A program made the translations under genes and the position numbers. A DNA stretch of 64,000 nucleotides from Candidatus Saccharimonadota bacterium (lineage in GTDB: Bacteria; Patescibacteriota; Saccharimonadia; Saccharimonadales; UBA4665), in contig JAQGGT010000004.1 in the NCBI GenBank assembly GCA_028289245.1, positions 124,001 through 188,000 of the forward strand, read 5' to 3'. The notes below the pieces were generated by a model. That model saw nothing but the letters and a program-made list of their open reading frames with translations. It ran no database searches and was not told the DNA's origin. This document shows positions 1 through 36,203 of this stretch, one piece after another. Each line of letters opens with the position of its first letter. Within the stretch, counting starts at the first letter, position 1.

Positions 1-1290
1 TTGCAGGGGCGCCGCCAGGCCGACTATTTATTTACCATCTCGCGCCGCTCTAGCTGGGTACTGGCAGTGTCGCAGCTCGCGTTATTGGGCTTGGCGTATG
101 GCTTGCTGCGGTTGCACCCGGCAGTGGCTGTCATGCCCTCTATCGCTGCCGCCAACCTCGTGGTGGCAGCAGTCGTGACGCTTGTGGCGCTGCGCCAATT
201 AATAAAAACCCGGCCTCCTAAGTTGGTTGAACCGTTCCCCCCGAGCCAGCTACCCAGCCTGACCGTTGCCATTCCTGCCCGCAACGAAACCGATAGCCTT
301 GAGGCTTGCTTACAGTCGCTGATTCAGAGCGATTATCCTAAGCTAGAAATTCTGGTGCTCGACGATTGCTCTCAGAATAAGCGGACGCCGCAGCTCATAA
401 AGAGCTTTGCGCAGGACGGTGTGCGCTTTATCGCCGGTAAGCCGGCGCCGGAAGCCTGGCTGGCTAAAAACTTCGCCTACCAGCAGCTAGCCGATGCCGC
501 GAGCGGTAGCCTACTACTGTTTTGTGGCGTCGACACTCGTTTTGAGAAGCAGACCCTGCGATTGCTGGTGGCCGATATGCTCGAAAAAAAGAAGACCATG
601 ATAAGTCTGATCCCAGCTAATCAAGTGCCACCGGCCGGCGAGTTTGAATCGTTACTGGTGCAACCAAGCCGTTACGCCTGGGAGCTGCTGCTGCCCCGCC
701 TCTGGACCAGCCGACCGCCCGTGCTCAGTACTTGCTGGATTATTAGCCAGCAGGTCCTCGAGGACGCTGGCGGCTTTGCCGCGGTCGCCCGAAACATCAC
801 GCCGGAGCGCTACTTAGCCAAACACGCGGCCCTGCAAAACGATGGCTACAGCTTCATGCAAAGTGCTACCACCACCGGCCTGACAAGTCATAAACCGTTC
901 GACGACCAACAGGCCACCGCCATCCGCAGCAAATATCCCCAGCTCCATCAACGGTTGGAGTATGCCGCTTTTGTGACATTGCTCGAAATCGGTCTGTTCG
1001 TACTACCCTTCGTGCTGGGACTTGGCGCCCTGGCAACCGGCTACTGGCTGGTAGCGGCGCTCAGCGGGGCCAGCCTGGTGCTGCTGACGTTTATCTACGT
1101 CCAAATTATGGCCGTTACCTATCGGCGCTTCTTATGGCGCAGCCTCTGGCTATTGCCCTTTGCGGCGCTGTATGACGTGGCCATCCTTAATTACTCGCTT
1201 TATAAATATGAATTCGATACGGTGATGTGGAAAGATCGCAACGTCTGCATTCCGGTCATGCGGGTGATTCCTACCCTGCCACCGGCATAG
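1..1290 (+). CDS. Family 2 glycosyltransferase, membrane-anchored (5' end possibly cut)
   Basis: Likely transfers a sugar from a nucleotide-sugar donor to a lipid or envelope acceptor at the membrane. A GT-A core begins near residue 86 (SLTVAIPARNE), followed by EILVLDDCS and a DxD-like CGVDTRF near residue 175. Two hydrophobic segments precede the core (about residues 17-35 and 43-63) and three follow it (about 320-395). The order resembles hydroxychlorobactene glucosyltransferase-like GT2 proteins, but the acceptor cannot be read. The reading frame is open from base 1, and TTG at position 1 may be internal, so the true start may lie outside the window. Confidence 0.75.
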   Translation: MQGRRQADYLFTISRRSSWVLAVSQLALLGLAYGLLRLHPAVAVMPSIAAANLVVAAVVTLVALRQLIKTRPPKLVEPFPPSQLPSLTVAIPARNETDSLEACLQSLIQSDYPKLEILVLDDCSQNKRTPQLIKSFAQDGVRFIAGKPAPEAWLAKNFAYQQLADAASGSLLLFCGVDTRFEKQTLRLLVADMLEKKKTMISLIPANQVPPAGEFESLLVQPSRYAWELLLPRLWTSRPPVLSTCWIISQQVLEDAGGFAAVARNITPERYLAKHAALQNDGYSFMQSATTTGLTSHKPFDDQQATAIRSKYPQLHQRLEYAAFVTLLEIGLFVLPFVLGLGALATGYWLVAALSGASLVLLTFIYVQIMAVTYRRFLWRSLWLLPFAALYDVAILNYSLYKYEFDTVMWKDRNVCIPVMRVIPTLPPA

Positions 1291-32507: not shown

Positions 32508-33388
32508 GAAGCCGCCATAAACTCCGCAAAGCTGGGAGGCGTGTCGACGGTGAAGACCTTGCGCTCGCGGTTTGGTAAGGTAACTTCTAGGATATGGGCA
32601 TGCAGGTAGAGGCGGTCGGCCGGTTCACCGCCATAGAGTGCGTCGCCGACAATTGGATGGCCCAGTTCTTCGAGATGGACGCGCAGCTGGTGGGTACGGC
32701 CGGTGGTGGGGTTGAGCTTAAGTAGGCTGTGGTGCTCACTTTCCTGCACTACCAGGTACTCGGTCTGGGCGGTTTTGCCATTGATGCCGACCCGAAATGT
32801 TTGGGGTTTACGGGGGTTACGCTCGATGGCCATATCGATCAGAGCTTGGGGTTGCTTGAGGTGGCCGCCGACGATAGCCATGTAGGTTTTTTTGACACGG
32901 CGCTGGGAGAACTGCTTTTGCAGCCATTTGGTAGCGGTGATGTTCTTGGCACAAATCATGACGCCACTGGTCGCACGGTCTAAACGATGGACGATACCGA
33001 CCCGTTGGTCGACGACGCCTTTGATGTCCTCAAGGTCTTCCGGTGCATAGCGATCGAGGAGCCAGGTGCCGACAGTAGCTTCGGGGTTATAGACGCCCTT
33101 GCTGTGAGTGAGGATGCCGGCTGGCTTATTAATGACCACGCAGTCGTCGTCCTCATAGAGTACTTCTAGTTCGATCTTGGGGATGATGTCGAGGGTATCA
33201 GCATCAAAATCAATCACGATGGTGTCGCTGACGCGGAGCTTCGTACCGGCTTTGGTAGCGAGGACGTCGTTGACCATCACTTTGCCATCGGCAATCAGCT
33301 TAACGGCGTAAGCCCGACTGATGCGTGGCAAGGCACTGGCTACGTATTGGTCGAGCCGGGGACCCTGGCTGAGTTCAATATTGCTCAT
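32504..33388 (-). CDS. rluD: RluD-family 23S rRNA pseudouridine synthase
   Basis: 294 residues: N-terminal S4 RNA-binding domain (RLDQYVASALPRISRAYAVKLIADGKVMVND) and a pseudouridine synthase catalytic domain with HRLDRATSG (catalytic Asp) and the C-terminal GRTHQLRVHLEELGHPIVGDALYGG. It belongs to the RluA/C/D class; the exact target uridine is inferred. Coupled to trpS upstream (TAATG overlap). Confidence 0.92.
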   Translation of the reverse strand: MSNIELSQGPRLDQYVASALPRISRAYAVKLIADGKVMVNDVLATKAGTKLRVSDTIVIDFDADTLDIIPKIELEVLYEDDDCVVINKPAGILTHSKGVYNPEATVGTWLLDRYAPEDLEDIKGVVDQRVGIVHRLDRATSGVMICAKNITATKWLQKQFSQRRVKKTYMAIVGGHLKQPQALIDMAIERNPRKPQTFRVGINGKTAQTEYLVVQESEHHSLLKLNPTTGRTHQLRVHLEELGHPIVGDALYGGEPADRLYLHAHILEVTLPNRERKVFTVDTPPSFAEFMAAS

Positions 33389-34422
33389 TATGGCCTCAGG
33401 CCGACGGCTTGTTGTATGCGGTAGAGACGCTGCAAGGCAACATCGCGCATCAAGAACTCGCTGGACTCAAGCTTGCGCATTAGTTCGGCTTCATCGATGG
33501 CATCGAGTTTTTTCTGGAAGGCGGTGAGGAAGACTTTAACCTCGCTGGCGACAGCGGTTTTGAGATCGCCGTAGTTGGTTTTACCTTCCCATTTCTTAGT
33601 AACTTCGTCGACGGGTTCACCAATGAGTAAGGCTAAGATCTGCAGCAGGTTGCTCACTCCCGGTTGTGCCTTGAGGTCAAAATGGATTTCACCTTGTGAA
33701 TCGGTGGTAGCTGACATGATTTTCTTGGCAGCAGCTTCGGGAGTATCACTTAACAATATAGTGCCAGCAGGATCATCGATGGATTTACTCATCTTTTTCT
33801 CGGGATTGCGGAGGGAGCGAATGCGAACGCCGTCGCCGCGACCGGCGAATTCGACCTGCTTTTTCCATTCGGCGGGCACGGTCAGCAGCTCTTCACCAAA
33901 TTTGTTATTAATGCGCAGGGCGACGTCACGGGTCAGCTCAATGTGCTGGCGTTGATCTTCGCCGACTGGTACCCACTCGGCGCCGTAAAGCAAAATATCA
34001 GCCGCCATCAGGACTGGATAGTCGTAGAGGCCGGCGCTAATACTGGTGTCTTTGGCGCCATCAGACTTTTCTTTGAATTGGGTCATGCGCTGTAGCTCGC
34101 CGTAGTACACGAAGTTGTTGAGAATGATGGTTAGCTCACTGTGGGCGGCCACGTAGCTCTGCCGATAGATGTAGGTATCTTCATTATCGAGATCGAGGCC
34201 ACCGGCAACATATTTCTTAAGGTTTTGGACGATCTGGAGGTAGAGCTTGTCGTGCTCAATTGGGGTGGTGAAGCTATGCAAGTCGGGTACGAACATATTG
34301 AGCTGGTACTTGCCGGCGTACTTTTTTTGCAGCTCAATCATCGGCAAAATCGCGCCGAGATAATTGCCAAGGTGCAGCTCGCCATTGGCGCGCAGGCCGG
34401 TGAGGATAACAGGTTTACTCAT
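33388..34422 (-). CDS. trpS: Tryptophanyl-tRNA synthetase
   Basis: 344 residues, class I synthetase. The HIGH-type motif is in LRANGELHLGNYLG and the KMSKS loop is present. It charges the tRNA-Trp encoded at 7.5 kb. TATACT at 34430-34435, 7 nt before ATG, suggests its own leaderless start in addition to read-through from the upstream racemase unit. Confidence 0.96.
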   Translation of the reverse strand: MSKPVILTGLRANGELHLGNYLGAILPMIELQKKYAGKYQLNMFVPDLHSFTTPIEHDKLYLQIVQNLKKYVAGGLDLDNEDTYIYRQSYVAAHSELTIILNNFVYYGELQRMTQFKEKSDGAKDTSISAGLYDYPVLMAADILLYGAEWVPVGEDQRQHIELTRDVALRINNKFGEELLTVPAEWKKQVEFAGRGDGVRIRSLRNPEKKMSKSIDDPAGTILLSDTPEAAAKKIMSATTDSQGEIHFDLKAQPGVSNLLQILALLIGEPVDEVTKKWEGKTNYGDLKTAVASEVKVFLTAFQKKLDAIDEAELMRKLESSEFLMRDVALQRLYRIQQAVGLRP

Positions 34423-34427
34423 TGCTA

Positions 34428-35010
34428 CTAGTATACCCTACCTTGCCGGCTCACGGAGTAGAATCGCTGTATGACGGCTTCAGAAAGTACTTCGGCAATT
34501 AATTACTGGCAACGAGAAGCGGTGATCGTCGAAGGCCAGCGGCAGCTCAGTGCAGCCCAGCAGTATGGCGTCGCAGTCAACCTGCTGCTCGGCCATCGCC
34601 GTCGCGTAGAGTCCGGTGGCAATGGTGGTTGGTGAAGCTAGTAGTCCGATTTTTTGGACGCAGGTGCGCCGGCACGCGGCGATCACGGCATCGATCATCG
34701 ACACAAAGCTGAAGTCTAAGAACATCGGCACTAATGGTACAAGTAAATGAGCCGTGTTGCAGGCCAGCACCGTTACTGCGGGCTGTAGCTGTCCCACTAC
34801 TTGGCTTAGGTTATTTATCTGGGAAACGGCTGCCGTGGCCTTGGCACGGTCAGATATAAAGTCTTCGATGGGCAGCGAGCAGTGCATGATACCGGGGTAT
34901 TCATGCCCTTGCCCGCTATGAAAAGGCTCGGATTTTTGGAGCAATAGGCCGTGGAGGCGGTGTGATGCCTGCGGCCCCATTCCACCGATGATGACAATTG
35001 GGTTATGCAT
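34428..35010 (-). pseudogene. Asp/Glu racemase family remnant (internal deletion, C-terminal frameshift)
   Basis: The intact ORF (34480-35010) has 176 residues against about 230 for the family. VIIGGMGPQAS, VLACNTAH and ILLGCTELP are present, so both catalytic Cys motifs survive. About 45 residues are missing between GLY and ATAMAEQQ. After LPVIN the frame runs into CRSTF-stop, while an alternative frame reads AEVLSEAVIQRF..., which looks like the normal C-terminus and ends at 34428. This suggests a decaying gene, though a sequencing error could explain the frameshift alone. Confidence 0.6.
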
Positions 35011-35035
35011 AGTAGTTCTCCTAAAGGTTTGTAAA

Positions 35036-35058
35036 TAAAAAATCGCCCGGTGGCGATC
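35036..35058 (-). terminator. Intrinsic terminator in the racemase leader
   Basis: ATCGCC/GGCGAT stem with a short loop followed by TTTTTTATTT on the minus strand, between the structured leader and the racemase start. It is suited to act as an attenuator. Confidence 0.7.
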
Positions 35059-35083
35059 TTTTCAACATCTTCAGCAGTAGATT

Positions 35084-35155
35084 TTAAAACACACAGAACA
35101 GACCGTCACGAGCAGTGTCGGTCAGCCAATATTGCTGGCGCTGTGTGGTTTTCAT
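35084..35155 (-). CDS. 23-codon leader ORF
   Basis: ATG to TAA, 23 codons (MKTTQRQQYWLTDTARDGLF...), starting 7 nt after TATAGT, so probably the very 5' end of the transcript. One Trp codon and no run of a single amino acid, so classical attenuation is not obvious. The same bases fold into a three-way junction (separate entry), so the ORF may be incidental. Confidence 0.35.
   Translation of the reverse strand: MKTTQRQQYWLTDTARDGLFCVF
35086..35153 (-). promoter_or_regulatory. Three-way-junction leader RNA (riboswitch-like)
   Basis: Read by eye on the minus strand. P1: AAAACCACACAG with CTGTGTGTTTT (11 pairs, one bulged C). P2: GCCA/TGGC. P3: GACCG-A-CAC/GTG-A-CGGTC. It is followed by an intrinsic terminator and the racemase remnant/trpS genes. 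The architecture (aptamer-like junction plus terminator) suits a riboswitch or protein-binding leader. No known class is recognised. Confidence 0.45.
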
Positions 35156-35162
35156 AATTCGA

Positions 35163-35191
35163 ACTATAGTATACAAAAACGCTAATGTCAA
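35163..35191 (-). promoter_or_regulatory. Strong promoter of the structured leader
   Basis: Perfect TTGACA (35186-35191), a 17-nt spacer and TATAGT (35163-35168) on the minus strand. Confidence 0.85.
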
Positions 35192-35197
35192 TGGTGC

Positions 35198-36178
35198 TTA
35201 TGGCTCTTCGCGGACCGCAAAGTCGTGGAGCGCTTTAAAGGGGATGTGGACGACATGCTCATCTTCATCCCCTTCAAAATAGGCAGTCATGGCCAGGGCT
35301 GGAATTTGACGGCCGGTCGGAAGCGCAATTTTGCTCTCGTGATTATAGACTAGATCATCAACCATAATTAGGTCACGAGCTTGACCCATAAAAAGATCAG
35401 CGGTGGTAGAGAGTTCACGCCTACCGCCGTAGGGTTTGAGGTCGATTGCGTACTCACACAACACCGACAGCCGCCGGTTTTGGACGCCCAGCTTCGCATT
35501 GAGATAGTTAAGATAGGTTGTGACATAGTCGGGAGTGTTTGTTTGTATCTCGTCGATCAAGTCGGCTAGTCCCTGGAAATCAGGATAAATCATGCCGTGC
35601 AGGAGCGTGTTAGTTGTCTCGAACCACTGCTCCGTGGGGAGTTGGGCGCTTAGTTCTCGCTGGGTGTCGCAGATGCGCAGATAATCGGTAACTTCGGATA
35701 ATCTGATCTGGCTCTGACTGACCGGGCCGCTGGTTTTGAGTACGCCCTCGAAACCGATCATCGTGCCGTGATAAGCGGTGCCCCGCAACACGCCGTGGTG
35801 ATAAAAGGTTACGTCGACTGATTCCGGGATAACCTCGCCGTCTGCACCCTGCTTGGCTCCAAGATTGGCGTAAAAACCCAGCGACCGAATGCGCCGTTCG
35901 CCAACTTCTTCATAGTGCCGAACGACTAGGTCGTCGCCGATCTCTTCGAGCCGTGGCACGTTATAGCGCCCCGATAGATCGACCTCACTATTAAATATCG
36001 TCTCGAGGGCTCGGTGATTGAGGTCCGATAAGGCGTCCTGAATAAATTCGGTGGCATCTGCAACGCCTTGCGCCTCTTGTGAGGCTACTTCGTAGTCGAT
36101 GGCGTCGGCACAGAGGGCTTTAGTTTGCTGGTCGAGCTCTGCTAGGCGATCCGGTAAGGCGAACTCCTCGGTGTTCAT
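35198..36178 (-). CDS. Hypothetical protein, 326 aa
   Basis: A soluble acidic 326-residue protein with no recognised motif, signal peptide or membrane helix. The first 60 residues look helical. Host-like codons. TATACT (36185-36190) is 6 nt before ATG, again suggesting a leaderless mRNA. It sits alone between the ribosomal block and the racemase/trpS operon. Confidence 0.6.
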   Translation of the reverse strand: MNTEEFALPDRLAELDQQTKALCADAIDYEVASQEAQGVADATEFIQDALSDLNHRALETIFNSEVDLSGRYNVPRLEEIGDDLVVRHYEEVGERRIRSLGFYANLGAKQGADGEVIPESVDVTFYHHGVLRGTAYHGTMIGFEGVLKTSGPVSQSQIRLSEVTDYLRICDTQRELSAQLPTEQWFETTNTLLHGMIYPDFQGLADLIDEIQTNTPDYVTTYLNYLNAKLGVQNRRLSVLCEYAIDLKPYGGRRELSTTADLFMGQARDLIMVDDLVYNHESKIALPTGRQIPALAMTAYFEGDEDEHVVHIPFKALHDFAVREEP

Positions 36179-36203
36179 GGCTTGAGTATACTATATTCCC
36201 TCA

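Follow-up and report, generated by a model that had tools for sequence, protein, structure and literature searches.

The stretch of 64,000 nt from a Candidatus Saccharimonadota bacterium that was analysed here (the window, taken at its full length) contains an Asp/Glu racemase-family gene and trpS, and a first-pass annotation had placed a consensus promoter, a three-way-junction leader and a terminator in front of this pair. We confirm that this feature exists: 5' of the two genes lie a promoter close to consensus, a leader that folds and a terminator, and both genes are recognised by protein family models (Table 1). The promoter (TTGACA, a 17-nt spacer, TATAGT) matches 11 of 12 consensus bases in a promoter scan. 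Note that promoter-like sites are not in excess in the region (two, against 2.6 expected by chance), so it is solely the quality of the match that stands out. For the racemase-family gene the NCBIfam model that scores best is cysteate racemase, though far under the cut-off, and a scan of viral contigs returned no relative of it. A racemase-family gene is found directly 5' of trpS in several families (the window and loci L057, L058, L060 and L063). Between ribosomal-protein genes and the leader lies an open reading frame of 326 amino acids (35198-36178, minus strand).

Table 1. Parts of the leader and of the unit downstream of it, in window coordinates
Feature	Position	Strand	Evidence or remark
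-35 hexamer TTGACA	35186..35191	(-)	Promoter scan
-10 hexamer TATAGT	35163..35168	(-)	Promoter scan; ends 7 nt 5' of the leader ATG
Leader peptide ORF MKTTQRQQYWLTDTARDGLFCVF	35084..35155	(-)	23 codons, single UGG; predicted leaderless
P1 5' arm AAAACCACACAG	35141..35152, partner 35096-35086	(-)	Fold
P2 hairpin GCCAGCAAUAUUGGC	35125..35139	(-)	Fold
Control codon UGG (Trp)	35126..35128	(-)	Trp here in 64/67 leaders
Segment 1 ACCGACAC (P3 5' arm)	35115..35122	(-)	Covarying pairing with segment 2
Segment 2 GUGACGGUCUGUUCUGUGUG (P3 3' arm, then P1 3' side)	35090..35109	(-)	Pairs with segment 1 or 3
Segment 3 AGAUGUUGAAAAGAUCGCCAC	35050..35070	(-)	Antiterminator partner of segment 2; contains terminator 5' arm
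Intrinsic terminator and U-tract	35037..35061	(-)	Fold; in nearly all leaders
Shine-Dalgarno AGGAG of first gene	35018..35022	(-)	
Asp/Glu racemase-family gene, first of controlled unit	34480..35010	(-)	PF01177
trpS, tryptophan--tRNA ligase	33388..34422	(-)	TIGR00233 above cut-off; PF00579

The leader RNA of the window has a folding energy of -39.4 kcal/mol (z = -4.1; none of 200 shuffles as good) and forms P1 (11 bp, bulged), P2 and P3, followed by an 11-bp terminator with a U-tract. Since it is conserved in relatives, this fold is not a product of chance. Four other genomes carry the leader at 72-81% identity by blastn, and a model of its 58-nt core finds it in at least 23 of 93 genomes within the family and at least 47 of 393 within the order. 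With a refined core model, matches rise to at least 57 of 393 genomes in a sample of the class; in a sample of the phylum, matches occur exclusively in members of the same order. These large searches scored just the best candidates per genome, so that absence counts from them represent lower bounds; searching by DNA pattern added two members that the model had missed (G133 and G199). We analysed 68 core matches, or 67 once one near-duplicate was dropped, from 15 families of one order (Saccharibacteria). Most of them have trpS on their 3' side, usually past one variable gene, and where no trpS was seen either the contig ended or the stretch examined contained none. Searches of Rfam 15 (Trp_leader and all other families) gave no match at the gathering threshold for the window or its relatives, the window yielding only sub-threshold noise at E values up to 10. 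The earlier statement that the leader matches no known class thus holds for sequence families but not for the mechanism, which, as we argue below, is already known.

What the first-pass annotation missed is the key element, a long antiterminator in which the 3' side of P3 and P1 pairs with the 5' side of the terminator. Segment 2, with the family consensus GUGGCGGUYUGUUC, has two partners, segment 1 and, over about 20 nt, segment 3. Its pairing with segment 1 (ACCGACAC with GUGGCGGU), which forms P3, comprises 92.9% standard pairs and 23 cells in which both sides have changed, a level reached in none of 500 shuffles. The alignment behind the 92.9% figure was fitted to this very helix, and an ungapped count gives 86% standard pairs, compared to 25-45% in slid registers. 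The alternative pairing of segment 2 with segment 3 (GUGGCGGUYUGUUCYGUG with AYAUUGAARAGACCGCCAC, about 20 nt) shows 86% standard pairs across the 67 leaders and 51 compensatory double changes at 13 of the 16 pairs scored, a set that excludes positions that are usually mismatched. Slid registers reach at most 55% and 26 double-change cells. The conserved CCGCC of segment 3 served to fix its register, so the invariant pairs carry no weight here.

Could the terminator alone account for this covariation? One pair of the antiterminator is G-C in 36 leaders, C-G in 10 and T-A in 6 and usually lies outside the terminator stem, so that the terminator cannot be the cause of its covariation. The covariation counts ignore phylogeny, with the G-C, C-G and T-A states spread over several families. 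Segments 1 and 3 differ chiefly at one base, which is paired in 18% of cases with segment 2 in the protector but in 91% in the antiterminator. Owing to this mismatch the antiterminator is able to prevail as soon as segment 1 is covered. Segment 3 continues into the terminator, which is present in nearly all leaders, and the protector, antiterminator and terminator helices are mutually exclusive, as in ribosome-mediated transcription attenuators. We also considered whether the conserved UGUUCUGUG might be an RNA-polymerase pause site; pairing with segment 3 explains its conservation at least as well.

The open reading frame, mentioned only in passing in the first-pass annotation, is the putative sensor. 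An ATG located 8-13 codons 5' of the UGG and followed by an open frame is found in frame in 66 of 67 leaders and in none of the 67 in either other frame, and Trp occupies the control position in 64. Its 5' neighbour is in most cases a Tyr or Phe codon and its 3' neighbour a Phe or Tyr codon (a Tyr/Phe-Trp-Phe triad). In most leaders segment 1 begins 3 nt past the UGG, and a stop codon lies 10-19 nt past segment 2 in 58 of 67, whereas in the other frames this holds for 16 of 134. Between relatives, single-base differences in the P3 loop shift the frame downstream of the UGG, and the conserved GGCGGUYUGUUC is read in two main frames, as GLF[CR]VF or AVCSV[CR]S. Two readings with a fixed stop position imply that the nucleotides, the frame at the UGG and the stop are kept, while the peptide as such is not; conservation of the stretch for its coding content alone, which would have told against the annotation, is thereby ruled out. 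A short frame with a control codon ahead of a terminator is what a ribosome-mediated attenuator would be expected to have. The single Trp codon counts against such a model: classical trp leaders mostly have two or more.

Translation of this frame is predicted to be leaderless, as first proposed for the 23-codon window ORF with its one Trp codon. The prediction follows from the position of the ATG about 7 nt past the -10 box, a spacing that recurs in relatives: among 66 leaders whose ATGs were picked blind to the promoter, strong -10 matches are most frequent at 7 nt 5' of the ATG (21 leaders), with 10 each at 6 and 9. Shine-Dalgarno-like 4-mers precede 5 of the 66 leader ATGs, compared to 49 of 62 first genes, the latter figure being inflated since first genes were picked partly by this signal. 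At loci L102, L103 and L104, from genomes that have no attenuator, a TATACT-type box lies a few bases 5' of the trpS ATG, and in the window a similar-looking box region is found at 36178-36200, beside the gene at 35198-36178 (minus strand). It may be that many genes of this lineage are leaderless.

Of the three helices claimed around the junction, P3 is kept across the family, with covariation. P1 has moderate support in a shifting register. A P1-type helix joining the 5' portion of the ORF to segment 2 in its 3' half has 8.8 expected pairs compared to 6.6 in shuffles, with a mean energy z of -1.2 and 35 of 67 leaders below -1, and its sequences differ among leaders (L013, L025, L052 and L080, for example). 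Support remains moderate because swapping P1 partners between genomes has little effect. P2 is restricted to part of the family, where it mostly occurs in a different register, and does not hold as a general element. We read P1-P3 as a protector conformation.

To model the stalled state, the RNA was masked as far as 11 nt beyond the first base of the UGG, a mask size that is assumed. So placed, the control codon would have a stalled ribosome cover segment 1. With this mask the mean probability of the antiterminator is intermediate at 0.59 (0.53 in the window), versus 0.29 in unmasked RNA (about 0 in the window). For window RNA cut 5' of the 3' arm of the terminator, the antiterminator reaches 0.83 in the stalled case and about 0 otherwise. 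With a ribosome placed on the stop codon, masked folding gives the terminator in 66 of 66 leaders. Against the model count the intermediate mean of the stalled state and the 18 of 66 leaders whose unmasked RNA yields the antiterminator.

Taking the conservation, the reading frame, the covarying alternative pairings, the leaderless spacing and the gene linkage together, we suggest, with a probability of roughly 0.88, that the leader acts as a transcription attenuator, mediated by the ribosome, through which charged tRNA-Trp is sensed; Tyr and Phe may also evoke some response. We infer the start of transcription and the translation, stalling and read-through of the leader as follows. Transcription would begin at or beside the AUG of the leader peptide, and the mRNA would be translated without a leader. 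Given ample Trp-tRNA, the ribosome would pass the UGG and arrive at the stop just past segment 2, leaving segment 3 free to form the terminator and keeping the racemase gene and trpS off. Ribosome-free RNA, where P1-P3 hold segment 2, would have the same outcome. Were Trp-tRNA scarce, the ribosome would stall at the UGG, cover segment 1 and break up P1 and P2; segment 2 would then pair with segment 3 into the long antiterminator and the unit would be transcribed. Arguing against this model, a few leaders have no recognised trpS in their neighbourhood, and the element is absent from many genomes of the order. When we scanned up to 1.5 kb upstream of trpS in 27 genomes, mostly picked as negatives, only the known G009 leader was found, and the trpS genes inspected have their own promoter immediately 5'.

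The first-pass annotation left the choice between riboswitch and attenuator open. In a metabolite riboswitch the three-way junction would bind tryptophan or a related compound and steer the terminator, the ORF being incidental. Such a device would fit the junction fold with its terminator, the recurrence of P3 and of a P1-type helix, and a terminated state that needs no ribosome in folding. We nonetheless consider it improbable: the reading frame, the UGG and the stop position are all conserved, whereas P2 and the register of P1 are not, so that the relatives do not share the frame-independent aptamer fold of a riboswitch. If the junction were a binding site, we would also expect conserved unpaired pocket bases; none were found, and the invariant stretches are explained by pairing with segment 1 or 3. 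The attenuator half of the earlier alternative is what stands.

Slightly less probable again is that the peptide, or the short terminated RNA acting as an sRNA, works in trans and that its effect on trpS is a secondary matter. One would indeed expect a short terminated transcript, and in Sinorhizobium meliloti both the trpL peptide and the attenuator RNA work in trans (PMC7298713). Here, however, the C-terminal half of the peptide is encoded in two main frames by conserved nucleotides and is hence not conserved as a peptide, the covariation sits in mutually exclusive helices, and the leader is linked to trpS, points that weigh more on a peptide function than on an additional sRNA role. Least probable of all is a T-box-like device in which uncharged tRNA-Trp stabilises the antiterminator by direct binding to the leader, since, for all that the target is Trp-tRNA synthetase, the anticodon CCA could read UGG as a base-paired specifier and a terminator/antiterminator architecture is present, neither window nor relatives match the Rfam T-box covariance model, no T-box bulge was recognised by eye, and a specifier requires no start codon, frame or stop, yet all three are conserved.

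Returning to the attenuator, its codons vary among relatives in a manner that suggests tuning to the target gene. Rare copies have Phe codons in place of Trp or alongside it. Locus L024 has two leaders (1570-1627 and 781-833, minus strand). The upstream one (HHFFFTGS), with Phe codons and no Trp, precedes a gene of no assigned family and is likely a codon-swapped attenuator; the downstream one has Trp, and the gene after it shares a blast cluster with two DAHP-synthase matches, that of L084, which exceeds the Pfam cut-off, and that of L016, which narrowly misses it. In L084 itself the leader NWFFFTDT is followed by DAHP synthase, and in L089 FFYFWFT is followed by prephenate dehydratase. Tandem attenuators, each complete with Trp codon and terminator, occur in L088 (2286-2343 and 2153-2210, minus strand) and L039 (1143-1200 and 1501-1559). 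In L073 (1501-1559, minus strand) TCG replaces the Trp codon (NSSYSFTGT) and the Tyr codon before it remains; the first gene there has no clear family match, an assignment by eye to prephenate dehydrogenase finding no support in Pfam, NCBIfam or PDB. We tentatively put forward, at somewhat less than even odds, that these leaders make up a new family of attenuators found in Saccharibacteria alone. In it a leaderless ORF and a three-way-junction protector would be combined with a Tyr/Phe-Trp-Phe triad reading all three aromatic amino acids, and codon replacement and tandem copies would have re-tuned it for trpS and aromatic-pathway genes.

Gene regulation in Patescibacteria is largely unknown, and inducible expression systems are said to be absent in the group (PMC11665869). 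If our reading is true, it would imply that RNA polymerase and ribosome are closely coupled and that leaderless initiation is efficient in these reduced epibionts, and it would provide a native amino-acid-responsive switch for this group. The Phe-codon copies would amount to natural experiments on codon specificity.

Enterobacterial trpL (Rfam Trp_leader) has a leader peptide that contains one or more Trp codons, three pairings that exclude one another (1:2, 2:3 and 3:4) and an intrinsic terminator. The Saccharibacteria leader would work alike, but trpL controls biosynthesis and has tandem Trp codons in an ORF led by a Shine-Dalgarno sequence, whereas the leader described here is linked to trpS, has one UGG in an aromatic triad, is predicted to be leaderless and has an additional P1. 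In the literature searched, which covers few subscription journals, we found no attenuator in Saccharibacteria or other Patescibacteria; the mechanism is classical, and what appears new is the family, its host lineage, the leaderless peptide and the architecture. The nearest precedents found are two. In Actinobacteria, classical attenuators with conserved complementary triples have been predicted before trp operons and a tryptophanyl-tRNA synthetase gene; in the trp-operon leaders UGG occurs two or three times and the core reads gGCC-rGCy-GGCC (PMC1262725). They belong to another phylum, and no sequence relation was apparent. In the alphaproteobacterium S. meliloti, the trpL RNA (rnTrpL) starts with the AUG of the leader ORF and is thus leaderless, and acts by transcription attenuation (PMC7298713); it controls trpE(G), and no sequence relation to the Saccharibacteria leader was recognised.
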